The notes below the pieces were generated by a model. That model was not told the origin of the DNA, ran no database searches, and saw only the letters and a program-made list of their open reading frames with translations. This document shows, in pieces, positions 13,824-34,536 of a DNA stretch of 64,000 bases. The stretch covers positions 1,860,001-1,924,000 of the forward strand of contig NZ_CP101153.1 in NCBI RefSeq assembly GCF_024298825.1, in the 5' to 3' direction. Position 1 is the first letter of the stretch, and every line of letters begins with the position of its first letter. The stretch comes from Haloglomus salinum. Its GTDB lineage: Archaea > Halobacteriota > Halobacteria > Halobacteriales > Haloarculaceae. Both the position numbers and the translations under genes were made by a program.

Positions 13824-13936
13824 TGTCTGATGTCGAAGGCGTCGCTATCCTATTACCTTTTCTGGGCTTCAGAGAGGATATTTCAGTTCAGCAGTGGAGG
13901 GAAAAGATTAGTGACCAGAATCGTATCCAGCGAGCG

Positions 13937-14818
13937 ATGGACCTCGATGATTCCCTGCGAGACAGCATCTATACACATATCGATCAGATCACGCAATGGT
14001 CCCTCTCCAGTTTTGACAGGGAGGTCGACGTTATCGACAAGACCGTCGATACACTGGACGGATTCGAGGATTCGAACGGAGGGCAGAGTGCGAAATTCAA
14101 AACCAAGAAGATGCACCCGTCGCCGAAGGTTGATTTCTCGGGGCCCAGATGGAGTGGAAATAAAGCCAATGCGGACTGGATTGACCGCAAGAACGCCGAA
14201 CTTGCGGACCTGATGTTTGTCGCGAATCGTCTCAGGGGCAATACCGTCGTCAGTAGACGCGTAATGATATCCCAGACGAAGTTCACCAGGGGGGCGTCGA
14301 AAAAGTGGAAGTGGAAAGTCAGGATGCACCAGTTCCATCTGCTGGACAGCCTCCCGGAGATCGAGTTCGTCGAGCCAGCTACTGGCGAACGGTTCGATAT
14401 CGACCCCGATAACCGATCGTTCACGACCTACAGCTTCGCCAGTGATCACTACTTTCCCTTCTTCAACACGACCGCGAAGATGCAGGAGTTCATGAGTTCG
14501 ACGCAGGGAGTCAAGAGCACTACCTTCGATCCCACTCCTGATGCTCCGCACGGGTTCCAGGTATTCAGGGGGATGCTGAAGCGGTTCGTTCTCGGTATGT
14601 ACGGTGAGCGGTTCAGCGCAGACGATACTGTGGGCGAGATGATTCAGCATATGTACGATAACGCCACGTTCGACCAGGGTAGCTCTCCGAACACGCTGAC
14701 AGACGGAGGACAAACGGAAATGAACGACCCGGCGACCGCAGTCGTCCAGATTGATCTTGGTCTGGAGAACCAGGAGGCGAACTTCGATGAACTCGACAGC
14801 GACGGACCGCGCCTCTGA
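13937..14818 (+). CDS. Uncharacterised island protein
   Basis: A 293-aa protein that I do not recognise. It starts with an acidic helical segment (about 1-50). A basic, aromatic middle region follows with RRVMISQTKFTRGASKKW and WKVRMHQFHLLDSLPEIEF, then a Phe/Tyr-rich stretch with HYFPFFNT and GMLKRFVLGMYGERF, and an acidic tail. No nucleotide-binding loop, metal cluster, signal peptide or membrane segment is visible. The gene is divergent from the second SNF2 helicase (113 bases between starts) and lies ahead of the HNH nuclease gene on the same strand. Location argues for a defence role; the sequence does not say which. Confidence 0.6.
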   Translation: MDLDDSLRDSIYTHIDQITQWSLSSFDREVDVIDKTVDTLDGFEDSNGGQSAKFKTKKMHPSPKVDFSGPRWSGNKANADWIDRKNAELADLMFVANRLRGNTVVSRRVMISQTKFTRGASKKWKWKVRMHQFHLLDSLPEIEFVEPATGERFDIDPDNRSFTTYSFASDHYFPFFNTTAKMQEFMSSTQGVKSTTFDPTPDAPHGFQVFRGMLKRFVLGMYGERFSADDTVGEMIQHMYDNATFDQGSSPNTLTDGGQTEMNDPATAVVQIDLGLENQEANFDELDSDGPRL

Positions 14819-14900
14819 CCTGGGCTGGCCACTTGCCTGGTCCCGCAGTGTCGCTCGGCAATGCCACCATTGAATACCCGGCAGTGTGTCGATCAGTCGC

Positions 14901-15947
14901 ATGGGTAGGGCATACCGGGTCGGAGAGACCTACCGCGACACCGGGAGTTACAGGAAGAGCGAGGACCAGTTCCTGCGCTGGATTCGTGGCCCGCTCGACA
15001 GCGGCATCAGGAACACGGGCGGAATCAGGGATATCGGCGCGGACCACTCGGACTCGCCAGCCGCCCTCGTCCTCGTCTCCAACGACAAGGGAGTCTCCCA
15101 GCACGACGACCCGTGGGAGGACACGCTTGCCGTGGATTCCGGGTACATCAGCTACTGGGGCGACGCCAAGGAGGGCAACCCGTACGACGACTCCGACCAG
15201 AACGACAAGGTAGTCGACGCGTTCGACCGGGCTGCGGCCGGCCGCCGCGAGGAGGTTCCGCCGGTGCTCGTGTTCCGGAAGCCGGAGTCCGGCGTGGTCC
15301 AGTTCTGCGGGCTGTGTGTCCCGGACTATCTCGAGGCCCGGCCCTACAGGGATGATGACGGCAACCGGGTGCCGAACTACCTGTTCCACTTCACGATTCT
15401 GAACACGCCGGAGGTCCCGGTCGAGTGGCTCCACTCCAGAGCCCGGGGCGGCAGCAACGAGGCCGCGCCCGACGAGTGGGAGACCTGGACCCGGACGGGC
15501 GAGGTGCACCAGTGGCCGACAGGAGTCCAGCGCGAGCAGAACGAGGGGTGGGTCCGCCGGTACGAACAGGCCGAGATTCCTGTCAGCGAGGACTTCCGGC
15601 AGGAGGCATTCGAACGGTACGGGCGAGCCTGCGTGATCACTGATATCCGCGAGGAGCCAGTGCTCGACCTCGCTCACGTCCTCCCGCGGAGCGAGCGTCC
15701 GGACCTGGCCGAGCACTCGGAGAATGTCCTCGTTCTGAACTCGCTCCATCACCGGGCGTTCGACGCGGATCTGTTCACTATCGACCCCGAAATGCGGTTG
15801 CGCGTTAGCCCCGCGTTCGACCCGGGACATCCGTTCCTCCGGGAGACGATCGTCGAGCGGGAAGGTGAGGAGGTCCGGCTGCCGCCCGATGCCAGCGTGC
15901 GAGGGGAGTTCCTTGAGGAATTGAATGGGAGCCTGTCCTGGGTATAG
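14901..15947 (+). CDS. HNH endonuclease with a possible modified-DNA-reading N-terminus
   Basis: A 348-aa protein. Residues about 230-290 form an HNH nuclease: CVIT-DI, then DLAHVLPRSERPD, NVLVLNSLHHRAFD and a DLFTIDP strand. This is the arrangement seen in McrA-type and other restriction HNH enzymes. The N-terminal 200 residues contain YISYWGDAKEGNPYDD and PVLVFRKPE-GVVQFCGLCVPD. The YWGDA block recalls N-terminal recognition domains of modification-dependent enzymes (AspBHI or ScoMcrA type), but this is a resemblance, not a demonstrated match. Start ATG 14901 is preferred to GTG 14886, with a weak TTGAATA box about 28 bases upstream. It could cut modified phage DNA or unmodified DNA; the sequence cannot decide. 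Confidence 0.7.
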   Translation: MGRAYRVGETYRDTGSYRKSEDQFLRWIRGPLDSGIRNTGGIRDIGADHSDSPAALVLVSNDKGVSQHDDPWEDTLAVDSGYISYWGDAKEGNPYDDSDQNDKVVDAFDRAAAGRREEVPPVLVFRKPESGVVQFCGLCVPDYLEARPYRDDDGNRVPNYLFHFTILNTPEVPVEWLHSRARGGSNEAAPDEWETWTRTGEVHQWPTGVQREQNEGWVRRYEQAEIPVSEDFRQEAFERYGRACVITDIREEPVLDLAHVLPRSERPDLAEHSENVLVLNSLHHRAFDADLFTIDPEMRLRVSPAFDPGHPFLRETIVEREGEEVRLPPDASVRGEFLEELNGSLSWV

Positions 15948-15988: not shown

Positions 15989-16363
15989 CTACACGTCGCC
16001 GATGAGATTCCGGTGGTCGTCGGAGCTGAGGACCTCATAGGCGGCCTGCACCTATTACGGTTCGATTCCGATGCGGTTGCTGGTCAGCGAGAGGAACCGG
16101 TCGTACTTGTAGGCGAGATCCAGCCGGATCACCCGCTCTCGAAGGTCGTATTGAAGCGGTGCGTCGGATTGGCGTGCTGCAAGATGGTCGACGAGCGAAT
16201 CGAGTTTCTCGGTGCGGGCGAGGCCGCTGGGGAGTTTGCGGAGCTGGCCCGCCGAGGTGTAGGCGTGGAGAAAGTGGCCGCCGTTTGGCCGTTCCTCGAT
16301 TTTCGTGATCTCTGCACGCCCGCCGGCGAATCTAACGTGATTGCCGACTGTGAAGTCAGACAT
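15989..16363 (-). pseudogene. Truncated SNF2 helicase N-terminus (third DrmD-like copy)
   Basis: The reading frame from ATG 16363 matches the first 105 residues of the two complete SNF2 proteins (VRFAGGRAEITKI, then LDLAYKYDRFLSLTSNRIGIEP). It then hits two consecutive stops at 16057-16052, exactly where intact copies have Tyr-Gln. Homology continues past the stops as VQAAYEVLSSDDHRNLIGDV and ends at 15989, just before the Walker A loop. No helicase motor follows, and the HNH gene ends 41 bases beyond. The start overlaps the stop of the TBP gene by eight bases, so TBP and this SNF2 were probably once a coupled pair. Confidence 0.75.
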
Positions 16364-16889
16364 TGGTCAAATTGGCAGATAGCGTACTGAGCGCTTTTGT
16401 GGCACTCTCAGCGTTGGTGAACCCTGTAAGTACCAATTTACCAGAGGAGAAAATCAGGATAACACCTTGATCAAGTCGATATACTAATCCTGGGAATTGC
16501 TCGGGTTCATACTCTACATCTTCTAATCCCAATTTGATAGCCAGCTTATTGAGATCCAAATCTTGTTCTAAATCTGATGTGAATACTATATTTGTAATTG
16601 TAAATTCAGATACTTCTTCTCTGATTCCCAAATCCGATAATCTGTCTTCTAATATTGATTTGTTTTTATATAGTTCTTCTTCAGAGGTTGCGCCTCGGAT
16701 GTTGCAGGAACCAGTTCGGTAGATTGTAATAGTTGGGGAATCTTCATAGAATTTTATATATAACCCGGGAGAATCTTTCTTTGAATAGCTACACGAGTGA
16801 GAATCTATATCGTTTGCAATAGCCTCGAGCTCAAATTCTCTATTGATTTTTCCTGTAGCAACTATGCTAACAATTTTTAACTCACTCAT
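16356..16889 (-). CDS. tbp: Orphan TATA-binding protein paralog
   Basis: A 177-aa protein with the two-fold repeat of archaeal TBP. Repeat 1 has VSIVATGKINREFELEAIA and CNIRG; repeat 2 has ITNIVF and QFPGLVYRLDQG followed by ILIFSSGKLVLTG. TBP recruits TFB and RNA polymerase to TATA boxes. Its length is normal, but the sequence is divergent and rich in Ile, Lys, Asn and Ser. The DNA is strikingly AT-rich beside GC-rich neighbours, suggesting acquisition from elsewhere. It may drive island-specific transcription or mimic or displace the host TBP. It overlaps the remnant SNF2 gene. Confidence 0.85.
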   Translation of the reverse strand: MSELKIVSIVATGKINREFELEAIANDIDSHSCSYSKKDSPGLYIKFYEDSPTITIYRTGSCNIRGATSEEELYKNKSILEDRLSDLGIREEVSEFTITNIVFTSDLEQDLDLNKLAIKLGLEDVEYEPEQFPGLVYRLDQGVILIFSSGKLVLTGFTNAESATKALSTLSANLTNV

Positions 16890-16945: not shown

Positions 16946-19900
16946 TCAGTCATCTCGAACTGCTGACTCGACAATTTCAATTTCCTCGTCGGTCAATTTG
17001 TAGAGGTCGTAAACAATCTCATTGATTAGCTGGTCGATTTTCTCGATTTTCTCATCCAGATCGTCAGCGCGCTCACGCACCTTGATATACTGCTCCAGTC
17101 CAGTTTGAACCTCACCGATGTCAGGGAGTGTCAGGTCTTTCAGCCGGTCCAGCGGTGAGTTCGTCTTAGTCGCGCCCTGCCGGAAGCCCGCGAATCCGTC
17201 GTCTTCCTCAATGGCGACAGGCACGAACTCTCGCAATAGCGTCTCCTCAGCCTCCGATAGACCGACAAAGGCCATCGCCTCGTAGGTCTCGAACTCCGAT
17301 TCGGCGAGACGGTTCCAGCGGTCTGTCTCGCGTGGGTCTTCCTCGTCGATCTTGTAGCTCAGGCTCACCGACAGCACCAGTCGTCCCCCCTCGTCTGCGA
17401 AGGATACCCCCTCTATACGCAATCCTTCATACTCATCCGTAGTCTTAGTCAGCGGCGTGTCTGCGACGCCCGCTACCGGCATCTGTAAGTCTTCGAGCGT
17501 TTCGCCTGCCTTCGCCTGCGGCAGTTCGTCACTTGGGATTCCGAGATAGTCGAGGAGCGCGAGATTAAGACCGGATTTGTCTTCGGTCTCTTCGGACCGA
17601 ATTCGGGCAAGTATCGCCAACAAATCATGCAATACAACGTCGTGTACTTCTCTTTGCTTAATTTTGCTTATAACATCCCCGACGGAACGTGCTTCTCTTA
17701 TCTCTTCTTCCAACTCGGCTACTAATTCGGACCTTTCGTTCGGCTCACCGTCGAAGTTAATTGCCCGAATCGGGAGGTCACGAAGCTCGTGGATTCGAAC
17801 CTGTGCGAAGGTCCGATCCTCCTCGCCTGACCGGGAGCGGTACACATACCGAAGGACCGCACTGTTAATTAGTGCAAGAACATACCAGAGGTCATACCGC
17901 TCATCGTTGAGTAGAGTCGTATGTACTGACTTGGCGGTGTATAGCTCGTTGGTATCGATTGCTCCGATGAGTGTCTCTGCCGTTTGTCTCGTGAGTAATT
18001 TCTCGGATACCTCGGTGTACTCGGGATACACCTGAATGACAATATCGCCCTCGACGAACGAGTCATAGTCGTGACGCAGCCACTTGTTCTCCGGTTCGAT
18101 ACGGTATCGCTCGATTTCACCACCACCAACGTAGCGGTGATCCTCCTCGTTTTCCTGTTCACCCTCATACATGATGAGATCAGAGATCTTCGTCCCCTCA
18201 CCTCGATTCTGCCAGCCTTGTCCACTTACTTTATAATCGATACCGGCATCGTGACAGGTACATATCGACGGCTCAAGCTCGACTATCTCATCTAACTCAG
18301 TAATTTTCCCCTCGACCCGATCGACAACACGCCATGGCTGTGAAGCTCGTGCCTCTATGGGAATAGAGTATCCTTCATCAGAAATCTCTGCTTCGTCTCC
18401 CTCGACGAGCGTAGCGTTATAATTTTCAGATGGACGCATGTTAGATGCGGTGAGTATCATCGTGAATATCTCCTCGTTGAATACATGATGCTCACCAAAA
18501 TCCACAATCTCCTCTATCGAATATCGCTGGGAGTTTACTCGACGAAATGCCTCGTACTGCTTTCCTTTCAGCGGAGTATTTGGTATGATATAGCTCCATG
18601 TGCCAGCCGCTCTCAGGATTCGGTCAGGAAGCGCAACGAATGCAGTGAAGATATCGGCACGTTCGCTCTCGAATCCCATCCCTTGAGCTCGACAGTATTT
18701 TTTCGCCCGCGTATCGAGAATATCCCCGTACGGTGGGTTCCCGAGTACCACATCAAATCCACCATGATCCTGTCGATCTCCATCCTGCTCGTAGAACGCT
18801 ATCGGGAACTCCAGTTCCCAGTGGAAGAATTGCTGGTCTTTGGCCATCGCCTCCGCCGACTGATACCAATCATATCTTTCGATTTTCTCCCAAGAGTCAT
18901 CCCGCAGGGCCTCTGCCATGCGTTCGTAGGCATCAGCGGGCACGTCCAGCCCGAACCGCTCGGCGGTATGGACGTTCGCCATGGCAATGAGGTGCTGATA
19001 AAGTGGGTCGTCGCGTACCTCGTCGTAGACGGTCTCCATCTCCTTGATGTCGTCCAGTGTCTCGTTGTCGATAGCGAGCAGGTCCTCGAACTGGTTGGTG
19101 ACGTGCTCTAAGGCCTGCCGCCGCGTGCGGTCGAACGACTCTTGCAAGGTTAGCTGACCTTCTTCGGTCCCGTTGTCAGGGTCGCCGTTGTCAAGCACCG
19201 TCTCAATGTCGCTGCCAACCAGCGAGTTCCCCGTCTTGAGATGATGGTCGAGGAAGGCAAGCGGTTGCTCGGCGGCGAGCGTCCGAAGCCATAGCGACAC
19301 CTTCGCCAGTTCGACCGCCAGCGGATTCAGGTCCACGCCGTAGATGCAGCGCTGCGCGACCTGCCGGCGGGCCCAGTTGATGTCGTGTTCCTCGTCGACG
19401 GTTTCGATACCCTGCTGGGCGGCCTGCCGCTCCTGAGCGTCGATAATTTCACGGGCGAGGTAGTCGATAGCGCTCGTCAGGAAGTGGCCGCTGCCCATGG
19501 CGGGGTCCAGGATTTTGAGGTCGAACACCTCCTCAGCGAACTCCTCAGCGAATCCTCCTTCGTCGAACGCACTTTGGCCAACGAGACTCCCCCGGATGTC
19601 GTCGACAATCGGTCCGAGCGTTTCCTCGACGATGTACTCGACGACGTACTCCGGAGTGTAGTACGACCCTGTCGCCTTCCGTTCGCCAGAGTCAGTGGTC
19701 AAGTATACATCGCCCTCGTTCACCACGACTTCGGAGTCACTGTCGGCACTCACGTACTCGCCGGCCTCCACGGCCTTCGGCTCGTGTGCGACGTTCAGCT
19801 GGTATTCGAGCAACCCCTCGTAGATGCTACCCAGATGACGGATGTCCAGCGAGGAGTAATCCACGAAGACCTTGCCGTCACCCTCGTCCGCTTCGCGGCG

Positions 19901-21106
19901 GGTCAGCAGGTCGACCACCTCGGCAAGGTGGGAGTCCGGGGCCTCGTGGCTGGCGAGGAAGAGCGCCTCCTCGCTGTCGTCGGGGTCCGGGTTCGTCCGG
20001 AATAGCCCACCGTTGTACGCTGGAATGTAGAGCTGATCCTCCGGAATCCCCCGGGACTGGCTCCCCTCGTTGATGAGGTCGAACAGTTCTCCCAGGCGGT
20101 TCCAGAGGTCCGTCTTCCAGGCGAGGTAGTGATCCTGCGAGTCCTCGAGGTTATCGGCGACGGTTCGCTTCAGGTCGTTCAGACTGTAACTGTCGCTGTA
20201 GATGTCGTTGTCCGTCGGGAGGAGGTCACGGCCCTCGCTCTCGGCGTACAGGACGAAGATGAGTCGATACAGGTAGATGAGCGAACTGTCGTGGATGCGT
20301 TCGAGGTCCTCCTCCCCGAGGTCGTCGTTGTACTCGAGGAACCCCTCGGCCAGCACGCGGATGGCCTCGTAGATGTTGTCCTGCAGGTCCTCCCCGAGTG
20401 CCTCGGCGAACGTACTGCTCTCGTCGTATACATCGTCGAGGAAGCAGTCGCCGTCGGACTCCTCGACGAAGGCCTGCCGCCGGAAGAAGAGGTAGAAGTA
20501 CCGGAACGCCTCGGTATCGCCCTCCTCCAGTAGCGTCGGCAGATCGATCTCGTAGTACGAGTCTAGGCGGTGACTCGTGGGGCCGTAGTAGAGCCGCCAC
20601 TTCTGGCCGTTGGTCAGCACCGCCCAGGTCGCGGGGGTCTCCTGGAGGTAGACGTGGATCTGATAGCTGGGATTCTCGAAGTCGCGCTCGCGCTTGCCCC
20701 GGGTGTCCAGCTTCCGGCCCCAGCGTTTGGCGTCGGCGACGGCGATGGCCTCCTCGTAGAAGTCACCGCCCTCGTCTCGCCGCTCGTGGGCAGCCTCTTT
20801 GCTCTCCTGGCTCCGGAAGAACGCGTAGTCCGGTCGCCGCTGCCCGCGCTCGACCGTCTCCTCGATCTCGAAGGTGATCCCCAGCCGTTCGAACACGGGA
20901 CGGATGAGTTCGCGCTCCAGTTGCGCCTCGTTGTAGCCCTCCACGCGGTCCGCCTCCGCCTGGTAGAGGTCGCGGATGTCCTCCATGGCGGACTCGACCT
21001 CGTCGTCCGGAACCTCGTTCCAGGGCTCGGTCTTCGGGAGGTGTTCGTTCAGGTAGTAGTTCGAGAACAGGTCGCGGTTCGTGCGGTAGGTGAGTGCCGA
21101 TTGCAT
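16946..21106 (-). CDS. drmMI: Adenine-specific DNA methyltransferase with nuclease motif (DrmMI / type IIG-like)
   Basis: A 1386-aa N6-adenine methyltransferase related to Eco57I, PglX and DISARM DrmMI. Around residues 85-130 a PD-(D/E)XK-like motif (RRPDYAFF, then AVADAKRWG) suggests a restriction-type nuclease domain. SAM motif I is LDPAMGSGHFL (about residue 533) and catalytic motif IV is LGNPPYGDI (about 789). A target recognition region follows, then a C-terminal coiled coil ending in YDLYKLTDEEIEIVESAV, as in PglX-like proteins. ATG 21106 was chosen because the 39 residues before it in the open frame are low-complexity and unconserved. It is divergent from the GHKL-drmA-drmB-drmC operon. 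Base composition shifts AT-rich in the recognition region (about 17.5-18.7 kb), suggesting TRD exchange. Confidence 0.85.
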   Translation of the reverse strand: MQSALTYRTNRDLFSNYYLNEHLPKTEPWNEVPDDEVESAMEDIRDLYQAEADRVEGYNEAQLERELIRPVFERLGITFEIEETVERGQRRPDYAFFRSQESKEAAHERRDEGGDFYEEAIAVADAKRWGRKLDTRGKRERDFENPSYQIHVYLQETPATWAVLTNGQKWRLYYGPTSHRLDSYYEIDLPTLLEEGDTEAFRYFYLFFRRQAFVEESDGDCFLDDVYDESSTFAEALGEDLQDNIYEAIRVLAEGFLEYNDDLGEEDLERIHDSSLIYLYRLIFVLYAESEGRDLLPTDNDIYSDSYSLNDLKRTVADNLEDSQDHYLAWKTDLWNRLGELFDLINEGSQSRGIPEDQLYIPAYNGGLFRTNPDPDDSEEALFLASHEAPDSHLAEVVDLLTRREADEGDGKVFVDYSSLDIRHLGSIYEGLLEYQLNVAHEPKAVEAGEYVSADSDSEVVVNEGDVYLTTDSGERKATGSYYTPEYVVEYIVEETLGPIVDDIRGSLVGQSAFDEGGFAEEFAEEVFDLKILDPAMGSGHFLTSAIDYLAREIIDAQERQAAQQGIETVDEEHDINWARRQVAQRCIYGVDLNPLAVELAKVSLWLRTLAAEQPLAFLDHHLKTGNSLVGSDIETVLDNGDPDNGTEEGQLTLQESFDRTRRQALEHVTNQFEDLLAIDNETLDDIKEMETVYDEVRDDPLYQHLIAMANVHTAERFGLDVPADAYERMAEALRDDSWEKIERYDWYQSAEAMAKDQQFFHWELEFPIAFYEQDGDRQDHGGFDVVLGNPPYGDILDTRAKKYCRAQGMGFESERADIFTAFVALPDRILRAAGTWSYIIPNTPLKGKQYEAFRRVNSQRYSIEEIVDFGEHHVFNEEIFTMILTASNMRPSENYNATLVEGDEAEISDEGYSIPIEARASQPWRVVDRVEGKITELDEIVELEPSICTCHDAGIDYKVSGQGWQNRGEGTKISDLIMYEGEQENEEDHRYVGGGEIERYRIEPENKWLRHDYDSFVEGDIVIQVYPEYTEVSEKLLTRQTAETLIGAIDTNELYTAKSVHTTLLNDERYDLWYVLALINSAVLRYVYRSRSGEEDRTFAQVRIHELRDLPIRAINFDGEPNERSELVAELEEEIREARSVGDVISKIKQREVHDVVLHDLLAILARIRSEETEDKSGLNLALLDYLGIPSDELPQAKAGETLEDLQMPVAGVADTPLTKTTDEYEGLRIEGVSFADEGGRLVLSVSLSYKIDEEDPRETDRWNRLAESEFETYEAMAFVGLSEAEETLLREFVPVAIEEDDGFAGFRQGATKTNSPLDRLKDLTLPDIGEVQTGLEQYIKVRERADDLDEKIEKIDQLINEIVYDLYKLTDEEIEIVESAVRDD

Positions 21107-21270
21107 GAGCGGAGGTCCCCCACGCCCGGGCGCCGTCCGGCGGCCCTGGTGGATACCGACCCCCAGAGACGACTCGCACATAACAGTTGCCAACGGGTCA
21201 GGCACACGCGTGCGAGCACGCACGTGGGTGCGTACGCGCTACGCGCGCCCACGTGTGCCCAGTTCTATAC

Positions 21271-21309
21271 CGACTCGCCCCCGAAACGTTAAGTGAAGGG
21301 GGCGAGTCG
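21271..21309. promoter_or_regulatory. Perfect inverted repeat in the divergent promoter region
   Basis: Arms CGACTCGCCCCC and GGGGGCGAGTCG (12 bases each, no mismatch) flank the 15-base AT-richer loop GAAACGTTAAGTGAA, ending 17 bases before the GHKL gene start. A second, imperfect symmetry around 21215-21258 (CACGTGGG and CCCACGTG cores) lies between it and the methyltransferase gene. The segment 21107-21326 separates the divergent modification and effector arms, so binding here could co-regulate both. The loop could instead form a hairpin in the 5' leader. Confidence 0.5.
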
Positions 21310-21326
21310 TCCCGAGATGTCGCGCT

Positions 21327-24077
21327 ATGACCACACCGCGCCTCACGGGAGCGACCTCCCGAACGTACGCCGAGCGCCTCCTGACCGCCAACGATCCCGA
21401 TGCCGTCGCGGAGATCGTCAGCGAGCTCGAGGACGAGTTCGACGTGGTCTGGAAGCCGCTCGGGGATGACGAGAACAACTACTCGGACGTGTACACGCAG
21501 GCGGCGTCACCTATCCCGGCGTTCTGTGAACTCCCGCTGAACAGCGAGGACTCGCAGATGCTCCGGTTCTACGAGCAGAACGCCGACGATGTCGACCCCG
21601 AGGAGTACACCTCGATGAAGGCGGCCGTCGAGTCCGACTGGGTCGATCTCGAAGACGCCGAGGTCGAGATCATCGCCGACGGGTACAAACCCTCCGAGGG
21701 CAACCTGCTCAACCTCACCGTCCGCGACAACGGCAAGGGGAAGGGCCGGGACGACTTCGACGACTTCGTCGGCCTCCACGCGCCCGGGCTGAAGAAGCAG
21801 AAGTACGGCTTCCTGCAGGGGCAGTACGGCATGGGGAGCACCGCCGTCATGCAGTTCTGCGGGAACATCGAGGAGGAGTACAACGAGCGCGCGTTCAAGT
21901 TCATCGCGAGCGCCTCGGTGCACGACCCGGAGGAGTGGACGTGGACCGTCGTCCACGACAAGCCCCACAAGGGTCGGGTCGAGTACATCACCGTCGGTGG
22001 GGAGTTCCCCATCTTTGACGGCACGTTCGGCGAGGCACTCGTCGAGAAGCACCGCGAGAGCTACGAGAGCTACGACTTCGACGCGCACGTGGATGCGTTC
22101 GACCCGATGGAGCACGGCGCGTTCGTCAAGGTGTACGACTACCGGACGAACGCCTCGCGCGCGCTCATCAGCGGCGACGAGGGCTTCCGGCGCAAGTTCG
22201 AGCGGTGCGTCGTCGAGTCGCCGTTCCCCATCCGGCTAACCGACATGCGGTACGACAACAAGCTCACCCAGAGCACGACCCGCGGGTTCCTGCCTGCCGT
22301 CCGCGACGGCAACGAGCACCTCGTGAAGGGCGAGGAGCACATCACGAAAGAGACGGAGTCCGAGACGCTCGGGGAACGGGACATCCACATCCTGCTGTTC
22401 AAGAGCGACAGCGAACTCGAGAACGTGGACACGACCCGGCGGGGCAAGGATCGGTTCGTCGCGGGCACGACGGGCCACAAGAACGCGACCAGCCGGACTG
22501 GCATCCAGAAGGACCACGCCGTCATGCTCACCATCAACGGCCAGACGCACGGGAGCAAGGGCGAGTACTTCCTGAAGCGCCTCGGCTACTCCAAGGTCGC
22601 GGAGGACACGGTCGTCATCGTCGAGTTCGACGACCTCGCGAATCTCGGGATGGTCAACATGTTCTCGGCGTCCCGGGACACGCTGAAGGACACCCCGCAG
22701 TCCAACCTGTTCCTCGCGGCGCTCGAGGACGCACTGGAGGACAGCGACCTCCTCTCCGACGAGGAGGACCGCCGCCGGGCGAAGCGCGGCAGCGAGGAGA
22801 CAGAGGTGGACACCGAGACGTTCTCCGACTTCGTCCAGAAGAACCCCGAGTTCGCGAACTACATCACCACGGGCGAGCACATCAACGCGCCACGGATCCG
22901 CCCGTCCGATGTCGCTGGGGACGAGGAGGGACCCACCCCGTCCGACGACGCATCGGCCCAGACATCCACGACCGGTGATGACGGCGGAGAGGGTGGGGAG
23001 GGCGATGACGACGAAGACCAGTTCGACACGCCCCAGCTCCCCACCTACCTGCGGCCCATCCGGGAGTACGACCCGGCTGGCGACCACGAGTACTGGGACG
23101 AGTCGGAGGGCATCATGCCGGTCGAGATGCCGGTGAACCAGGGGACGGTCATCCGGTTCGCGACGGACGCCCAGAGCAACTACCTCGTGCGAGAAGTTCT
23201 CAGCGGCTCGCTCAACGTCTCTCCCTCCGCCCGGTTCGAGGCAGTCGAACTGCAGGATGGGCTGCTGACGCTCACCATCTCGCCCGCCGAGAGCGCGGAG
23301 GTCGGTGACGACTTCGGGCTGACTGTCGAGCTGACCCGTCCGGACCCGGCCGACTGCAACCTGTTCGACGACCCCGCCGAGGCGTTCCCCGACGAGGACA
23401 CGGAGGAGGGGCCGGTCGCTGCCGACGGCGGGACAGAGCTCGACACGTCGCCCCTCACGTCGATGTTCACCGTCGAGTACACCGAGCCGGAGGAGGCCCC
23501 GGACACAACGCCCTCCAGCACCTGCGGCAGTGCCGGCCAGGAGGGTGACGAGAGCGGCGACGAGGAGCCTGGGAACGACACCGATGGAGAGGCCACCGAG
23601 GGCGAGCAGGACGGCGAGACCCGTGAACAGGCCCTCGCCATGCCCGAGATCCACTTTGTCTACGAGGAGGACTGGCGGACGGACGACGAGGGGGAGCCCC
23701 TCGACGACGAGGCGTACGACCCCGAGATCGGTGACGCGTTCGACGAGCACCGGCTCGTGCAGGTGGACGAGAGCCGGGACGGCACCATCAGTGGACTCAC
23801 CCTGACGATCAACATGGACGCCGCGCCGCTCCGCTCGTTCATCGTCGAGAAGAACGTCAGCGACACCTGGAAGGAGTTCGTCGAGAACCAGTACCGCCTC
23901 GCGGTGGTGTTCTACACCATCTGCGAGTACCGGGGGCTCGTCGACGAGGACAGCACGTCGCTGGGCAGCGGTGAACTGATGCCAGCGGAACTCGTGGACC
24001 GGACCATCAACGCCCTCGGCCCCGCGCTCATGCCGACAATCATCCCGGAGGACCAGCTCGACCGCATCACGGAGTAA
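21327..24077 (+). CDS. GHKL (MutL/MORC/Hsp90-type) ATPase
   Basis: A 916-aa protein with all three GHKL nucleotide-binding boxes. The N-box is E68-LPL-N72-SE-D75, the G1 box is VRDNGKG (Asp134, Gly136, Gly138) and the G2 box is GQYGMGSTA (165-173). An FSASRDTL segment near residue 450 resembles the transducer end of MutL/MORC proteins. An acidic Ser/Asp/Glu linker (about 515-570), a beta-rich region, a second acidic linker and a helical C-terminal domain follow. The ATP-gated clamp role is inferred from the family. It is the first gene of the drm operon, four bases before the helicase start. GHKL proteins are not among the published core DISARM genes as I know them, though MORC-like ATPases have been predicted in other restriction systems. 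Confidence 0.8.
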   Translation: MTTPRLTGATSRTYAERLLTANDPDAVAEIVSELEDEFDVVWKPLGDDENNYSDVYTQAASPIPAFCELPLNSEDSQMLRFYEQNADDVDPEEYTSMKAAVESDWVDLEDAEVEIIADGYKPSEGNLLNLTVRDNGKGKGRDDFDDFVGLHAPGLKKQKYGFLQGQYGMGSTAVMQFCGNIEEEYNERAFKFIASASVHDPEEWTWTVVHDKPHKGRVEYITVGGEFPIFDGTFGEALVEKHRESYESYDFDAHVDAFDPMEHGAFVKVYDYRTNASRALISGDEGFRRKFERCVVESPFPIRLTDMRYDNKLTQSTTRGFLPAVRDGNEHLVKGEEHITKETESETLGERDIHILLFKSDSELENVDTTRRGKDRFVAGTTGHKNATSRTGIQKDHAVMLTINGQTHGSKGEYFLKRLGYSKVAEDTVVIVEFDDLANLGMVNMFSASRDTLKDTPQSNLFLAALEDALEDSDLLSDEEDRRRAKRGSEETEVDTETFSDFVQKNPEFANYITTGEHINAPRIRPSDVAGDEEGPTPSDDASAQTSTTGDDGGEGGEGDDDEDQFDTPQLPTYLRPIREYDPAGDHEYWDESEGIMPVEMPVNQGTVIRFATDAQSNYLVREVLSGSLNVSPSARFEAVELQDGLLTLTISPAESAEVGDDFGLTVELTRPDPADCNLFDDPAEAFPDEDTEEGPVAADGGTELDTSPLTSMFTVEYTEPEEAPDTTPSSTCGSAGQEGDESGDEEPGNDTDGEATEGEQDGETREQALAMPEIHFVYEEDWRTDDEGEPLDDEAYDPEIGDAFDEHRLVQVDESRDGTISGLTLTINMDAAPLRSFIVEKNVSDTWKEFVENQYRLAVVFYTICEYRGLVDEDSTSLGSGELMPAELVDRTINALGPALMPTIIPEDQLDRITE

Positions 24078-24080
24078 CAC

Positions 24081-27000
24081 ATGTCACAGCAAGAAACCGA
24101 TACGCAGCAGATCGAGGAGGGACCGCCGTCAGACGAGGAGCGAATCGCTCGCCACCTGCGGAAGCGGGTGCTCGAGCAGGCTCGCGGCGACATCGACGAG
24201 CGCGTCCCCCGAGACTTCCCGAGCGAGCGGTTCTTCGCGGGCGCGCTCGCAGCCCGGAGCAGCGACCAGCTGGATGAGCCGGACGACGACCTGCAGTCCA
24301 AGATGGAGCCGAGCGCTCTGGGCTCCACGGTCAGGGTACGTAACGGCTCCCCTGATGACGCCCTCGTCGTCAACGTCGACGCGAGCGTCTGGGTCCGCGT
24401 GTATCCGACATACGAGGAGATGCGGAACCGGGAGTCGTTCGTGGCCCTCGGCGACCGCGACGAGGACGATGACGGCGACGAGCTGCTCCCCGTGTTCCGT
24501 CGGCTAGAACTCGATGTCGACCCGATCCGCATCCCGTTCGACGAGCTCGCCGACCGCCCGCGGCATACCCCCGAGGTCGTCAGGGAGCGCGCGAACACCG
24601 CCCTGCGTGACGCCTTCGAGGACGCCCGCGACCAGGCGCTCGACCAGTTCGATGTGTACGAGGTCCCCGGTGGAGAACCGGGTGACGACGAGGTACCGGC
24701 ACAGGCGCTCGCCAGCGAGGCGGACTTCGAGGGGTATCTCGCCGAGCGGGATGGCGTCCCCGCGATTCCTGACTGGGACGCCGACCTCGCCATCTCGGTG
24801 ATGCCCGACCGCGAGGACGGCGGTGAGGACGTGCTCATCGTCGATATCGAGCTGACGAACCGGGCCATCCAGTCGGAGGCGGACGGGATCCACACGATCC
24901 GCGACCCGACACTCTTCGAAGTCGAGTTCGAGCTCGAGGCCGACGGCAACCTCGAGTTCGTCCCGTTCACGTTCGACCCGCTGCCACAGGACTTCCGGTA
25001 CAACCGAGACCTCTGGGGGCACGGTCGGAACTGCACGGTCGTCGCTCCTGACGAACACGAGACGTTGCGGGACGGGCGTACTCCAGGTCGGCGGGCACCC
25101 GAGGCCGACCCGTCCGCCGACCGGCTCGAGACCCGGTACGTCCCACAGTACCGGCAGCTGGTGTACGAGTCCGCGGACAGGGGTGTCGATCCCCGGTTCG
25201 ACGACCTCTCCGACCTCGACGGCGGTGGACTGGAGGTTCTGGATGATGTCCACCGCTCGATGCAGCGGTACCTCGAGGAGGACTACCCGGCGGCGCTCGA
25301 CCAGTACCGGGAACGGGATGACTGGGACGACGACCCCGAGACCGGTGACCTGGCGGACTTCATCGAGGACCGCAAGGCGTTCGAGCGCGAGATCGCGCGG
25401 TTCGAGCGCGGTATCCGTTGCCTGCGACAGCATCCGGAAACCGTCGGGCGCGCGTTCGAGTGCATGAACGAGACGATGGACCGGATGCACGACTTCGACT
25501 CCTGGCGTCTGTTCCAGCTCGTGTTCATCGTCACGCAGGTCCCCGACGTGACCGCTCGCGAGCACGACGGCTGGGACGAGGTCGAGTGGCGCAACAATGA
25601 TACCGACGACAGGGCAGAGGAGGCCGACTCCGCGCTCGAGGTTGTCGATGTCCTCTGGTTCCCGACGGGCGGTGGCAAGACCGAGGCGTTCCTCGGTGTC
25701 GCGGTCTGGAACATGTTTTTCGACCGCATCCGGGGGAAGGACTTCGGGGTGACTGCCTGGACGCGGTTCCCGCTGCGGCTGCTGTCGCTCCAGCAGCTCC
25801 AGCGGATGTCCGAGACCATCATGTACGCTGACCTCGTCCGCCGGGAACAGCCAGACATCGGCGAGCATCCGTCTCGCTCGTTCTCTGTCGGATACCTCGT
25901 CGGCAAGAAGAACACCCCCAATCAGCTCACAGGGTACAACAACGACAACTACTCCCGGTACAGGAACGACCGCTCGCTCCGCGAGGATGCCAAGGTCGTC
26001 CCCTCCTGTCCGGCCTGCGACGCCCCGGTCGAGATGCGGGTGACGGACGACGACCATCGGCTCGCCCACGTGTGTACGGGCTCGTCGTTCGACTGCCCGT
26101 GGCAGGCGCGGGATGTCGACCCACAGGAACCCTACGATGAGGACGAGCTACCGGTCCACGTCGTGGACAACGAACTCTACCGGTACGCTCCGACCATCCT
26201 CGCCGGCACCATCGACAAGATCACCGCGATCGGCTACCAGCGAAAGGTGGCCCATCTGCTGACCGGCGAGATGGACTGCAAGTGCCCCATCCACGGGTTC
26301 GCCAGCCTCGGCGAGTGCACGGAGAAGTACGGCTGCGAGATCGACCGGGACGAGTTCGAGGAACTCGCGACCCCTGTCGAACCATACGATCCCGCACCCT
26401 CGCTGATGGTGCCCGACGAGCTCCACCTGCTCGAGGAGAGCGTGGGGAGCTTCGACGGCCACTACGAGACCGGTGTCGACGCGCTCCAGGACCTCGTGGA
26501 CGCTGGCACCACCAAGATCATCGCTCCGACGGCGACGATCACGGCGTACGAGGACCAGGTTCACCACCTGTTCATGCGCTCTGCCGAGCGGTTCCCGGCT
26601 CCGGGGCCGTACCTGCGGGAGAACTTCTACGCCCGGGAGCGAGCGGAGACGCAGCGCTACTACATCGGGCTGGTGCCCCACGGGAAGACCCACATCAACT
26701 CGATCATCGACCTGCTCTACTACTTCCACGAGGAGGTCCAGACGCTGCTCCGTGAGGCCCTCGAGAACCCCGAGGCGCTCCTGACCGGCGCCGTACTTGA
26801 GGGGACGGATACCGACCAGCCACTCGAGACCGACCGCGTCGACGAGGTCATCTCGATGCTGACGCTGTACAGCACGAGCCTGACATATCTCCTCTCGAAG
26901 AAGGACGGCGACCGGCTCGACCAGTCCATCGTCTCCCAGCTCGAGGCCTACCTCAAGCGCGATGATCGGCCATCGCTAACGGCGAAGCGGCTCACCGGAG

Positions 27001-27902
27001 GAACACCCTTCGAGGCCGTCCAGGACATCCTCGACACGCTCGAGGAACCCTGGGACGAGGAGCAGGACGAGGACCTGCTGGAGGGGCTTATCGAGCAGGA
27101 CCTCGTCGCCGACGGAACTTCCGAGGAGGTTCTCGAACTTCGGAATCTGCTCGAACGGAGTCTCGACGAGGAGGACGGGGAGGTCGACAACGACCAGTTC
27201 CGGGTCGAGCTCCGCCGCATGTCGGCCGAGACTCGCGAGGGGCTGGCCTGGCTGCTCGCCAGCAGGCTCAACGCCATCACCGCCACGAGCATGATCAGCC
27301 ACGGCGTCGACGTGGAGCGGTTCAACATGATGGTGTTCTTCGGGATGCCCCGGCAGACTGCCGAGTACATCCAGTCGAGCTCGCGTGCGGGACGTACCTT
27401 CCCCGGGCTGGTATTCAACGTCGCCCACCCCATCCGCGAACGTGACCTGAGCCACTACCACTTCTTCGAGAAGTACCACGAGTTCCTCGACCGGCTCGTC
27501 GAGCCCGTGGCGATCAACCGGTGGGCCAAGAACAGCGTCAAGCGGACCCATCCTGGGCTGATGATGGGGCTGCTGCTCAACCACTACATGTACAACGGCG
27601 ACTACGGGAACCTCTACTTCGGCGACCAGGCCGAGGAGTTCGCCAACTCCATCGACGAGGAGGAGCTGGCTGATCAGATCGCCGGGATGTACGGCGACGA
27701 CGACAGCCACGAGGAGTTCATGCAGGATGCCGACGACCTGACCCGGGCGGCACTGTCACAGCTCCGGCTCGACGACTCCCAGTGGACCAGCGGCCGGCTT
27801 CCGCGTGATCCGATGCGAAGCCTCCGCGACGTTGACGAGCAGCTTCCGATCCGGCCCGAGTACAGGGACAATGACATCTTCGAGAGCTTCAACAACAGGT
27901 GA
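24081..27902 (+). CDS. drmA: DrmA-like superfamily 2 helicase
   Basis: A 1273-aa helicase. The first 500 residues are acidic and lack known motifs. The motor begins at PTGGGKTE (528-535), with a zinc-finger-like insertion of paired cysteines (CPACDAPV region) and a DELH Walker B at 779-782. It continues with APTATITAYEDQ and C-terminal motifs SHGVDVERFNMMVFFG and QSSSRAGR (1098-1105). This order with a following DUF1998 gene is the DrmA-DrmB signature of DISARM; related helicases occur in Druantia and other DUF1998 systems. It starts four bases after the GHKL stop and ends seven bases before drmB, so the three genes are surely one transcript. Confidence 0.85.
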   Translation: MSQQETDTQQIEEGPPSDEERIARHLRKRVLEQARGDIDERVPRDFPSERFFAGALAARSSDQLDEPDDDLQSKMEPSALGSTVRVRNGSPDDALVVNVDASVWVRVYPTYEEMRNRESFVALGDRDEDDDGDELLPVFRRLELDVDPIRIPFDELADRPRHTPEVVRERANTALRDAFEDARDQALDQFDVYEVPGGEPGDDEVPAQALASEADFEGYLAERDGVPAIPDWDADLAISVMPDREDGGEDVLIVDIELTNRAIQSEADGIHTIRDPTLFEVEFELEADGNLEFVPFTFDPLPQDFRYNRDLWGHGRNCTVVAPDEHETLRDGRTPGRRAPEADPSADRLETRYVPQYRQLVYESADRGVDPRFDDLSDLDGGGLEVLDDVHRSMQRYLEEDYPAALDQYRERDDWDDDPETGDLADFIEDRKAFEREIARFERGIRCLRQHPETVGRAFECMNETMDRMHDFDSWRLFQLVFIVTQVPDVTAREHDGWDEVEWRNNDTDDRAEEADSALEVVDVLWFPTGGGKTEAFLGVAVWNMFFDRIRGKDFGVTAWTRFPLRLLSLQQLQRMSETIMYADLVRREQPDIGEHPSRSFSVGYLVGKKNTPNQLTGYNNDNYSRYRNDRSLREDAKVVPSCPACDAPVEMRVTDDDHRLAHVCTGSSFDCPWQARDVDPQEPYDEDELPVHVVDNELYRYAPTILAGTIDKITAIGYQRKVAHLLTGEMDCKCPIHGFASLGECTEKYGCEIDRDEFEELATPVEPYDPAPSLMVPDELHLLEESVGSFDGHYETGVDALQDLVDAGTTKIIAPTATITAYEDQVHHLFMRSAERFPAPGPYLRENFYARERAETQRYYIGLVPHGKTHINSIIDLLYYFHEEVQTLLREALENPEALLTGAVLEGTDTDQPLETDRVDEVISMLTLYSTSLTYLLSKKDGDRLDQSIVSQLEAYLKRDDRPSLTAKRLTGGTPFEAVQDILDTLEEPWDEEQDEDLLEGLIEQDLVADGTSEEVLELRNLLERSLDEEDGEVDNDQFRVELRRMSAETREGLAWLLASRLNAITATSMISHGVDVERFNMMVFFGMPRQTAEYIQSSSRAGRTFPGLVFNVAHPIRERDLSHYHFFEKYHEFLDRLVEPVAINRWAKNSVKRTHPGLMMGLLLNHYMYNGDYGNLYFGDQAEEFANSIDEEELADQIAGMYGDDDSHEEFMQDADDLTRAALSQLRLDDSQWTSGRLPRDPMRSLRDVDEQLPIRPEYRDNDIFESFNNR

Positions 27903-27908
27903 TCTGGC

Positions 27909-29870
27909 ATGAGCAAGCACATGGAACGTAGCCGTCAGCAGGTCCTGTACCAGTTCCTCCCCGGGAACACCTTCGACTACAGCGACCGGCGCGGCATCTG
28001 GCAGGTGAACCGGCTCGAGACGAGCGACATGAGCGGCCGCATCGACCGCCAGTACATCCTCGACCGGGTTCTGGCTCGGGCGTGGAACTGGGATGGCGGC
28101 CACCAGGGCTTCACGTCCCAGAACCCCGACCACTACGACTTCGGAGAGCCCGAGTCGGTCAGAGCACGCCCATTCCCCACCACGTTCGGCTGTCGTCGGT
28201 GTGACAAGGTCCACGGCTACTATTCGGCCGATCAGCTCAACGACGAGAACCCGGAGCTGACCTGCGATAACTGCGGGGTTGAGCTTGAACAGTACCAGTT
28301 CGTGAGCGTCCACAGCTGCGGAGAAATCCGGCGGCTCTACCCCCAGCAGTGCCCGACCCACGGTGATCAGCACATCGTCCTCGACACCCAGGGAAGCCAG
28401 CGGGCCCAGAACTTCCACTGGAGATGCGATGTTGGTGACTGTGGCTGGGATACCCGGGTCAGCTACTACCAGAACTGCGGATGTGACTACCAGCCTCCGG
28501 ACGTGTCGGAGGACGACAACCGGATGTACACCACCGTCCACCGGGCGGGATCGACATATTACCCGCACTATATCACGACGGTGAACCTCCACACGGCAGG
28601 GATCGGACACCTCCGCGAAAGCGCCAACGGGGCGCTGAAGGCCATCGCTCGCCTGTTCGGGCTCTCCGAGGCCGAGTCGCTCCAGAGCGTCGATCTCGAC
28701 GCGGACATCGGAGATACCGAAGTCGACGACGACCGTCTCATCGAGGTGTACCAGACGGAGCCCGATGTCAACGGACTCGATGAAGCCGAGGAATGGCTCC
28801 GGGATGCCGGCGAGATCGACTCACAGAGCATCAACCGTCGTCTGGGCGAACTCCTCGACCTGGACAACGAGGACGATGCGACGGAGCTCACCGACGCCGG
28901 TGACGAGCTGCTCCAGTACGTGCTGAGTCTCGAGTCGCTCACCACCCACTCGCTGTCGGATCTGCGTGACGATGCGCGTGACCGGGGCTTCCCCGGGAAG
29001 GCCGACCGGATCGACACGTACTTCGACGACATCGAGCGGCTCGGAATCGATGCCGTGCGCGTCATCGAGGACTTCCCGATCCAGACGTTCGTGTACGGGT
29101 ACACCCGCGGAAGTCGCGAAGAAGGAGAGGCGAAGATCAACGCCTTCTCACAGAACGCCAGCGACGGAGATGGCACACCGATCTTCGTCGACACATCCGA
29201 GACCGAGGCAGTCCAGTTCGATCTCGATCCCGCTCCGGTACTGCTGTGGCTCGCCTGCAACATCCCCTCGACGAGTGAACCCAGCGAGGTGCGGGGCCCC
29301 GTGGTCCTTCCCGAGGTCGACCCGACGGATGCGGACAGCGTCGAACGTGCACGTCGCGAGATCTCGGCGCTTGATCTCGATGAGCAGTGGGCGTTCATCG
29401 TGAATCACCTCTCGCCCGTGGACCGCTACGGCCGGTTTGAGACCTCGACCGATGACGATGTCGAGGGCGAGGTCACGGCGTACATCTTCCAGCTCCTGCA
29501 CACGCTCTCGCACATCCTGCTCAAGCAGGCGAGCACCATCAGCGGGTTCGACAGGACGAACCTCAGCGAGTTCCTGTTCCCGAGAGGGCTCTCCGTGGTC
29601 ATCTACGCGAATAACCGCGAGGAGTTCAACATCGGGGGCATGAACACGATGGTCGAGCAGCAACTCGACAACCTGCTCGGCCAAGCCGAGGCACACGGCA
29701 ACGACTGCCTGATGGACCCGGTCTGCTCCCAGCGTGGCGGGGCGTGTCTCTCGTGCCTCCACGTGAGCGAGATCAGTTGCTCGTACTTCAACCAGGTACT
29801 CGCGCGGGATTACCTGTACGGGAGCCGCCCGAACACTGACAGGGACATCTACGGCTACTGGGAGCTCTGA
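27909..29870 (+). CDS. drmB: DrmB-like DUF1998 zinc-binding protein
   Basis: A 653-aa protein. The N-terminal half holds several cysteine pairs that probably bind zinc: CRRC (95-98), CDNC (119-122), Cys137, Cys148 and a CDVGDC pair near 173. A helical acidic middle follows. The C-terminal DUF1998 region contains LLHTLSHILLKQAS, FLFPRGLSVVIY, NIGGMNTMVEQQL and a dense cysteine motif with CLMDPVC, CLSCLH and SCSYFNQ. DUF1998 proteins partner with DrmA-type helicases in DISARM and are fused to the helicase in Druantia. The biochemical role is unclear; the cysteine clusters suggest DNA binding or scaffolding. Confidence 0.88.
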   Translation: MSKHMERSRQQVLYQFLPGNTFDYSDRRGIWQVNRLETSDMSGRIDRQYILDRVLARAWNWDGGHQGFTSQNPDHYDFGEPESVRARPFPTTFGCRRCDKVHGYYSADQLNDENPELTCDNCGVELEQYQFVSVHSCGEIRRLYPQQCPTHGDQHIVLDTQGSQRAQNFHWRCDVGDCGWDTRVSYYQNCGCDYQPPDVSEDDNRMYTTVHRAGSTYYPHYITTVNLHTAGIGHLRESANGALKAIARLFGLSEAESLQSVDLDADIGDTEVDDDRLIEVYQTEPDVNGLDEAEEWLRDAGEIDSQSINRRLGELLDLDNEDDATELTDAGDELLQYVLSLESLTTHSLSDLRDDARDRGFPGKADRIDTYFDDIERLGIDAVRVIEDFPIQTFVYGYTRGSREEGEAKINAFSQNASDGDGTPIFVDTSETEAVQFDLDPAPVLLWLACNIPSTSEPSEVRGPVVLPEVDPTDADSVERARREISALDLDEQWAFIVNHLSPVDRYGRFETSTDDDVEGEVTAYIFQLLHTLSHILLKQASTISGFDRTNLSEFLFPRGLSVVIYANNREEFNIGGMNTMVEQQLDNLLGQAEAHGNDCLMDPVCSQRGGACLSCLHVSEISCSYFNQVLARDYLYGSRPNTDRDIYGYWEL

Positions 29871-29916: not shown

Positions 29917-30852
29917 ATGGCTATGCCCGACGACATCTCTCGCTTTGACCGGGCACTCGCGATTGCAGACATTCTGGACCATGACGAGCACCTGGTTCAG
30001 GAAGTCGAGGGGCATCTGCTGGTGGCTGCAGGCCGGTCAGAAACCATCTCTCCTGCCATAATTGCTCGTGAAACATCCCTCGAACGAGAAGAGGCAAGCG
30101 ACCTGTTCAGACAACTTGATGAACAGGGTGCTGTCCTGCGAGATTCGTATCAAGCGCCGGTGGTGGAGACGAACTACCGTGTCCGGGCCAGCTCGGTACG
30201 TGCAGCATTTGACACCGTTCGAAACGCTGTTGCAACCATAGCTGCGTACCAGGATCGAGTTCCCCGGGCAGAGGTAACTCCTCTGGTGACTTTCCCAGAT
30301 GACCCCTCGTTCGATGCCACTACGCCGGCTGAATTCGGGATGGAGGGGCTGATGTCGACCCTCGTGTCGGCAGTAAAAGATTCGTCCGAGGAAATCGTGC
30401 TCCTGTCTCCGTTTTTCGAGCAGACCGGTTTCGGCCGCCTCGCAGACGTCCTGCTTGATGCCCTCGGGCGGGGGGTGGAACTGACAGTCGTGACACGATA
30501 TCTCGGTGACTCATCATCGCACAACCACTCTGTCATTCAGGATTTTGTGACCCGGGCTCGCGAGCGTGGGGTCGCCAAGGGGCTCAAGACGGTCGATTAT
30601 ACTGTCTGGGCCGATGATGTCCCCGCGAGTGACCGGAATCAGGAGGGAGAGAATCCAGCCTTCACTCTGCACGCCAAGGTGATGGTGTTCGACCGAACGT
30701 CTGCGTACGTCGGCAGTGCTAACGTCACTGATTACGGATTTGGGAGGTATCTGGAACTCGGAGTCCTCCTCGGGGGGCCTCCAGTAAAACAGGTTTCGGA
30801 GCTCTGCAACTTTCTGCTGGAATCCGATGCAGCGACGACTGTCTCTCTGTGA
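29917..30852 (+). CDS. drmC: DrmC-like phospholipase-D-fold nuclease
   Basis: A 311-aa protein. Residues 1-75 resemble a winged-helix segment. The C-terminal half has one clear PLD motif, H252-x-K254-x4-D259, followed by SAYVGSANVTDYGFGRYLELGVL. A preceding IVLLSPFFEQTGFGRL strand-helix is typical of the first half of PLD nucleases. One HKD motif per chain implies a dimeric active site, as in bacterial Nuc and BfiI. It begins 46 bases after drmB on the same strand, and DrmC closes DISARM operons in the same way. In tested DISARM systems drmC was reported as not strictly required. Confidence 0.85.
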   Translation: MAMPDDISRFDRALAIADILDHDEHLVQEVEGHLLVAAGRSETISPAIIARETSLEREEASDLFRQLDEQGAVLRDSYQAPVVETNYRVRASSVRAAFDTVRNAVATIAAYQDRVPRAEVTPLVTFPDDPSFDATTPAEFGMEGLMSTLVSAVKDSSEEIVLLSPFFEQTGFGRLADVLLDALGRGVELTVVTRYLGDSSSHNHSVIQDFVTRARERGVAKGLKTVDYTVWADDVPASDRNQEGENPAFTLHAKVMVFDRTSAYVGSANVTDYGFGRYLELGVLLGGPPVKQVSELCNFLLESDAATTVSL

Positions 30853-32330: not shown

Positions 32331-32390
32331 GGCCTACCCAGCCGGGTGTAGAGCAAGAAGCTTCGGCTGGGATGGTCCTCCGACACCGCT

Positions 32391-32430
32391 TTCGGAACTT
32401 TCGGAAACCACCCCGTTCCGTTTATCGGGT
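32391..32430 (+). promoter_or_regulatory. TTCGGAA repeats and TATA-like box upstream of orc
   Basis: Two TTCGGAA copies (32391-32397 and 32400-32406, nine bases apart) sit just upstream of a GTTTATCG box at about 32419, which is about 30 bases before the orc ATG. The same heptamer recurs three times after the orc stop. Repeats that flank an orc gene on both sides are typical of archaeal origins and of Orc autoregulation. Confidence 0.45.
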
Positions 32431-32451
32431 CGCGTTCAGAAACGTCCCGAT

Positions 32452-34274: not shown

Positions 34275-34536
34275 TCCGACCTTCCGCGACCTCCTGCGGG
34301 CGCTGGAGCGGCGCTGGAGCGACTACCGGCGTGGGCTCCGTCACCGCGACCAGGAGCGGTTCGACCAGCTGTTCGTCGACGCGGCCGACTACGCCGATGC
34401 CGCAGGTTACCTCAACCACGACGAGCCGTTCCAGCCCGTGCTGTTCTCGATCTGCCTGGCCCAGCAGCGCCGCATCGACGAGCTTCGGGAACGGGTGGAC
34501 GTGCTGGAGGGGCACGTGGACACTGGTGATGGCTGA
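34261..34536 (+). CDS. Small helical protein in the polB2 operon
   Basis: A 91-aa highly charged, mainly helical protein with a FRDLLRALERRWSDYRRGL start and a C-terminal IDELRERVDVLEGHV segment that could form a coiled coil. No catalytic motif is visible. It overlaps the gene before it by 14 bases and shares a single base with the polB2 start, so expression is coupled. It is probably an accessory subunit of the polymerase cluster. Confidence 0.65.
   Translation: MGRTNPTFRDLLRALERRWSDYRRGLRHRDQERFDQLFVDAADYADAAGYLNHDEPFQPVLFSICLAQQRRIDELRERVDVLEGHVDTGDG

Follow-up and report, generated by a model that had tools for sequence, protein, structure and literature searches.

The DISARM operon of Haloglomus salinum begins with a gene for a putative GHKL-type ATPase, which raises the question of whether this protein belongs to the defence system and what it could contribute to it. 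The operon lies in a stretch of 64,000 nucleotides (contig NZ_CP101153.1, positions 1,860,001 to 1,924,000), referred to here as the window and numbered from its first letter. A sequence-only reading of this DNA had taken the 916-residue protein for the likely first component of a drmA-drmB-drmC operon and had imagined an ATP-gated DNA clamp acting together with DrmA and DrmB.

The DISARM locus and its first gene

The gene order is GHKL-drmA-drmB-drmC, with DrmA, DrmB and DrmC recognised by PADLOC, and both the first place of the GHKL gene and its ORF with N-box, G1 and G2 motifs were found as the sequence-only reading had given them. The proposed distance of four bases to drmA held for the adjacency and not for the number, since the GHKL stop codon occupies 24075-24077 and the drmA ATG starts at 24081, leaving a gap of three bases. 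The locus consists of the following features:

10890-13823, minus strand: drmD/brxHII-type SNF2 helicase, 977 aa (PADLOC BrxHII E 2.6e-175, DrmD E 6.9e-114)
16946-21223, minus strand: drmMI, adenine-type DNA methyltransferase, 1425 aa, divergent from the GHKL gene (PADLOC DrmMI E 3e-100; PF07669 E 6e-30; NPPY at 829)
21224-21326, no strand: divergent intergenic region of 103 bp between drmMI and the GHKL gene (from ORF coordinates)
21327-24077, plus strand: GHKL ATPase gene, 916 aa, ATG start, first gene of the operon (ORF, motifs, family alignment, AF2 model)
24081-27902, plus strand: drmA, SF2 helicase, 1273 aa (PADLOC DrmA E 6.9e-151; NCBIfam DrmAS E 1e-118, below cut-off; GGGKT at about 529-533, DELH at 779)
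27909-29870, plus strand: drmB, 653 aa (PADLOC DrmB E 4.1e-53; CxxC pairs at 95, 119 and 613)
29917-30852, plus strand: drmC, PLD-family nuclease, 311 aa (PF13091 E 3.6e-10; PADLOC DrmC E 2.4e-14; HxK....D at 252)

The DISARM core, the DrmA helicase and DrmB, is present by PADLOC with NCBIfam cut-offs unreached, and so are the class I extras DrmMI and DrmD, the BrxHII model outscoring DrmD for the helicase; a drmD/BrxHII homologue was found in most class I loci examined. The window thus resembles DISARM class I in having all five genes (DrmMI, DrmD, DrmA, DrmB and DrmC), and differs from it in the extra GHKL gene before drmA and in scores below the NCBIfam cut-offs. Because the PADLOC matches fall short of these curated cut-offs (DrmA 398 of 950 bits, DrmB 64.5 of 240, DrmC 57.6 of 133), the locus is regarded as a divergent haloarchaeal DISARM. 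Motifs are intact in DrmA, DrmB, DrmC, DrmD and DrmMI, and no match to the DrmE family occurred among the subset of window ORFs scanned. The 103-bp region between drmMI and the GHKL gene presumably carries both promoters; a promoter scan of the operon gave nothing useful, its consensus being of the sigma-70 type, as expected for an archaeon.

Several other genes occur in and near the locus. Between drmD and drmMI lies a TATA-binding protein (TBP) gene (16356-16889, minus strand; PF00352, E 3e-40), and TBP-related genes or fragments are present in the DISARM loci L035, L099 and L101; TBP genes have been reported in TOTE/TALON conflict systems. ORFs without assignment fill 13883-15830 (minus strand) between drmD and the TBP gene, and pieces akin to ORF 14613-15830 recur between drmD and drmMI in L099, L101, L111 and L115. 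An HhH-GPD/EndIII-like glycosylase gene (10071-10862, plus strand), matched by the PADLOC type II nicking endonuclease model, is found again beside haloarchaeal DISARM (L036-L038, L097-L099, L101, L105), in many cases close to a C5 methyltransferase; its product is possibly a mismatch glycosylase paired with such a methyltransferase. Directly downstream of the operon, an Orc1/Cdc6-like AAA+ gene (32260-33453, plus strand) and a family B DNA polymerase gene (34536-36668, plus strand) suggest a replicon remnant or an integrated element, and ORF 37200-38156 (plus strand) strongly matches the PADLOC candidate defence family PDC-S11 (E 6e-98).

Domains and relatives of the GHKL protein

The protein comprises the following domains:

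21462-22286, plus strand: GHKL (Bergerat) ATP-binding domain, about residues 46-320; N-box E68/N72/D75, G1 D134/G136/G138, G2 GQYGMG at 165-170
22314-22796, plus strand: S5/transducer-like domain, about residues 330-490; NGQTH (404-408) and R450-D451 conserved; structural matches reach about residue 489
23043-23486, plus strand: Ig-like beta-sandwich domain, about residues 573-720; weak fold assignment from AF2 of the C-terminal part
23646-24074, plus strand: C-terminal domain, residues 774-916; mostly helical in the model; N829/D831 conserved

The G1 box reads D134-N-G136-K-G138 and the G2 box G165-Q-Y-G-M-G-S-T-A. In an alignment of 23 family members, four of them bacterial, E68, N72, D75, D134, G136, G138, G165 and G170 are at least 95% conserved, and conserved residues are also found towards the C-terminus (P773, W783, N829, D831 and Y856). 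The GHKL fold expected from these motifs was recovered by structure prediction, the resulting AF2 model (11 sequences; mean pLDDT 65, pTM 0.51) being of moderate confidence for the whole protein. VIA matches over residues 46-489, which span the ATP-binding and S5/transducer domains, include Hsp90 (Z 17.7), MORC3 (15.5), TopoVI-B (14.9), SMCHD1 (14.4) and MutL (13.8), with GyrB also among them (overall Z range 13-18), and Foldseek returned GRP94 (E 2e-10, the best), GyrB, ParE and SMCHD1. The model points to a GHKL plus S5 fold, and its Z-scores single out no one GHKL subfamily. PF13589 is matched by 14 of 15 family members, the window protein itself giving a sub-threshold match in a single-sequence Pfam scan (E 0.0054). 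Nothing was found with the single sequence by phmmer against the PDB or in a scan of the genome contigs, a profile search of PDB sequences with the family returned chance matches only, and no PADLOC or NCBIfam model matches the protein.

The domains that follow S5 gave no informative fold match in the C-terminal AF2 model, in which the Ig-like part reached a best Z of 8.2 with many generic Ig-like folds at 7-8. No nuclease domain or motif was recognised in the C-terminal part by Pfam or in this model: a PD-(D/E)xK-like fold is absent among the matches listed, which barely cover the last ~140 residues, and RE-fold nuclease and TIR appear neither as Pfam domains nor among the C-terminal folds listed, with the same thin coverage of the last domain. 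Pfam scans of the window protein likewise revealed no kinase-specific domain.

Relatives outside DISARM are found mainly beside DNA-modification genes. A long form in Haloferax sulfurifontis (L041, ~46% identical) adjoins an N4/N6-type methyltransferase, with an MvaI/BcnI-type endonuclease and GmrSD near, and another in G281 (L042, ~46% identical) adjoins two C5 methyltransferases. At L041:8543-18791 a 405-aa unassigned gene precedes the GHKL gene with a 4-bp overlap, followed by the N4/N6 methyltransferase, GmrSD-like and MvaI/BcnI-type endonuclease genes, and most of this set recurs in L048. Short forms (750-810 aa) adjoin N4/N6 methyltransferases (L045, L048, L049, L051, L054), lie within an ARMADA-like operon (L044) or have no recognised partner, as in four Haladaptatus loci (L047, L050, L052, L053). 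The L044 operon (L044:1-16707) combines BrxHII-like, PglX/DrmMI-like, GajA/OLD-like and YprA/DruE-like genes with the short-form GHKL gene. ARMADA itself (PMC12458937) has related helicase and methyltransferase partners, and the window differs from it by its DrmB and DISARM-type DrmA; the text of the ARMADA paper makes no mention of GHKL, HATPase or MORC. The remoter archaeal relatives at L134 and L135 are next to N4/N6 methyltransferases, and the one at L137 is next to a PLD-ResIII helicase. In the bacteria Devosia, Ensifer and Hymenobacter, PAPS-reductase genes occur close to the relatives, accompanied by DUF4007 in Devosia and Hymenobacter, and a kinase-like gene is the direct neighbour in Devosia (HEF_HK type) and Ensifer; the Pontibacillus relative has no PAPS-reductase, DUF4007 or kinase-like neighbour. 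This family (GHKL, S5, Ig-like and C-terminal domains) is recurrently associated with DNA-modification genes, and DISARM has probably acquired it as a portable module driven by ATP.

That MutL/MORC-type ATPases occur in restriction systems, as the sequence-only reading noted, was already predicted by Iyer, Abhiman and Aravind (2008, PMC2292703), whose text treats GHKL/R-M associations as paraMORCs in restriction systems and proposes that paraMORCs of R-M operons loop DNA. Like the paraMORCs and prokaryotic MORCs of that text, the window protein combines GHKL and S5 domains with intact ATP motifs, lies beside SF2 helicase, methyltransferase and nuclease genes and falls in the HATPase_c_3 superfamily; the paraMORC partners named in the main text, Rad25-like, SNF2 and DThhQ-motif helicases, are unlike the DISARM set found here. 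By architecture and context it fits the paraMORC group in the general sense, a placement above the level of paraMORC1-5. The MORC S5 motif as printed there, GhXhhpXXRhl, is absent in 23/23 family members, and the MORC family proper is rejected on this ground. A GHKL ATPase is also found in VcSduA, a Shedu protein with an N-terminal GHKL domain in which E27A abolishes anti-phage activity (PMC12137116). In VcSduA the GHKL domain is thus experimentally needed and the middle domain is predicted to be clamp-like; it differs in carrying its own PD-(D/E)xK nuclease, none being recognised in the window protein.

Distribution and history of the GHKL-drmA pair

Among 392 haloarchaeal genomes, DrmA (E <= 1e-30) is present in at least 49, a GHKL family member in at least 23 and a GHKL gene directly upstream of drmA in at least eight (the window and seven others, from at least four families), all counts being lower bounds because only the best candidates per genome were scored. 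In one of the eight, Natrinema pallidum (G217), the GHKL frame is broken in a draft contig. Depth searches of plasmid, phage and archaeal whole-genome collections revealed the same arrangement on a plasmid of Halarchaeum sp. CBA1220, and homologs adjoining drmA/drmB, a neighbourhood on which the initial proposal depended, thus recur in at least eight genomes and on plasmids. Where the distance to drmA was measured, it ranges from -4 to about +5 bp, so that the genes abut or overlap. No relatives of the protein were detected in viral contigs or the phage collection.

The status of a fixed DISARM member, which the sequence-only reading had touched on, is excluded by the distribution of GHKL among DrmA carriers. 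Seven of the 15 close DrmA relatives lack the gene (G181, G069, G053, G372, G010, G360 and G207, with DrmA 57-72% identical to that of the window), drmMI being directly divergent from drmA in the first six, and almost all DrmA carriers beyond the close relatives lack it too. The family is absent from 36 of 39 DrmA plasmids, the three carriers all belonging to the clade of the window, and on the plasmid of archaeon DL31 only a C-terminal remnant (~58 last codons) precedes an intact drmA. When the positions before other drmA genes were searched with a local profile for overlooked GHKL genes, they proved to hold DrmE, DrmE-like or unassigned proteins. Since close relatives do without GHKL and one plasmid kept DISARM after its near-deletion, the operon appears able to dispense with it.

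On the DrmA tree the GHKL carriers form one clade (support 100/98) nested among non-carriers, with one state change, and because of this a single gain would be the simplest account in the sample studied. The DISARM-linked GHKL proteins also form one clade in their own tree (100/100). GHKL is nevertheless not strictly co-inherited with DrmA, because the trees disagree on one genome, G036, which pairs with the window for GHKL and with other carriers for DrmA and DrmB; the GHKL data reject the DrmA/B-type placement (AU p 0.007). These topologies indicate that GHKL was exchanged relative to drmAB after its gain; for G036, the DrmC and DrmMI trees are too uneven in rate to tell which of the two operon halves had been exchanged. 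The window and G036 share the divergent drmMI-GHKL arrangement.

GHKL proteins beside drmA are only 60-82% identical at the lower end, with dS mostly 0.8-1.7, and because synonymous sites are near saturation the GHKL-drmA linkage has been maintained beyond chance. GHKL is under purifying selection (dN/dS 0.12-0.38, versus 0.045-0.23 for DrmA), evolving faster and under less constraint than DrmA in every pair compared.

Possible roles of the ATPase in DISARM

The N-domains of GHKL-S5 proteins come together as a dimer when ATP binds and open again on its hydrolysis, and in MutL and type II topoisomerases this cycle holds DNA and signals to a nuclease. We consider it fairly probable that the window encodes a class-I-like DISARM in which a paraMORC-like ATPase, recruited once upstream of drmA, gates or licenses DrmAB. 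In such a system, ATP binding would dimerise the protein via its GHKL domains, and the dimer would close around or contact DNA or DNA-bound partners. Where incoming DNA is without the DrmMI mark, the dimer would then license or load the co-translated DrmA-DrmB helicase through contact with it, nucleases such as DrmC would act after this loading, and ATP hydrolysis would reset the protein, whose part in defence would accordingly depend on methylation. A more specific version, which is put forward tentatively as something less than probable, is a separate subtype of DISARM: an ATP-gated clamp of MutL/MORC type would occupy the slot that DrmE takes in class II and control the engagement of DNA by DrmA-DrmB, and the module would be common to several unrelated DNA-modification defences.

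The main alternative is a largely self-standing restriction ATPase whose links to DISARM are limited to a common promoter and the DrmMI modification, and which would be a second effector instead of a regulator of DrmAB. Family members that live without any DISARM gene, alone or beside a single methyltransferase, speak for it, as do the conflict between the GHKL and DrmA/B trees, the loss of GHKL from the DISARM of the DL31 plasmid, and the window and G036, both with divergent drmMI-GHKL genes, whose GHKL proteins group together while their DrmA and DrmB do not. In every DISARM case, however, GHKL immediately precedes drmA, abutting or overlapping it, and a protein in which no nuclease domain is recognised would still need an effector; we regard independence as rather unlikely. 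Less plausible still is an Hsp90-like chaperone or a signalling or regulatory GHKL protein whose task would be to assemble DrmAB or to control expression of the operon, without acting on DNA. The highest Z-score does belong to Hsp90 and histidine-kinase-like genes lie beside the relatives in Devosia and Ensifer, but MORC3, TopoVI-B and MutL follow within a few Z units, so that the fold does not choose, most genes that neighbour family members encode DNA-modification enzymes, helicases or nucleases, and the window protein has no kinase-specific domain.

A fixed core component, functionally equal to DrmE of class II, is hardly credible: DrmE-type genes do occupy this position immediately before drmA in L103, L109, L110 and a Halobacterium GSL-19 plasmid, but GHKL is missing from close relatives and from nearly all other carriers, and its profile fails to match DrmE proteins. 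Class II resembles the window in having a gene for ~740-920 aa immediately upstream of drmA and differs in that no GHKL-family gene occurs in the class II loci examined; the common slot does no more than hint at an analogous role. Long proteins (924-1396 aa) are also encoded beside drmA in L104, L106, L107 and L108; the three scanned or compared have no Pfam match, are mutually similar and weakly DrmE-like, and possibly represent a diverged DrmE group.

GHKL proteins in restriction systems were already known. Their association with DISARM, in the form of a variant that carries a paraMORC-like ATPase as an accessory, was not found in the largely open-access literature searched. The finding bears on how DISARM discriminates foreign from self DNA, for which a structural study proposes that DrmAB senses DNA structure (5' overhangs; PMC9142583). 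Closely related operons with and without GHKL, together with the near-deleted plasmid copy, make the contribution of this protein directly testable, and the pairing with GHKL ties DISARM to an earlier prediction that places the origin of MORC-like ATPases in restriction systems.
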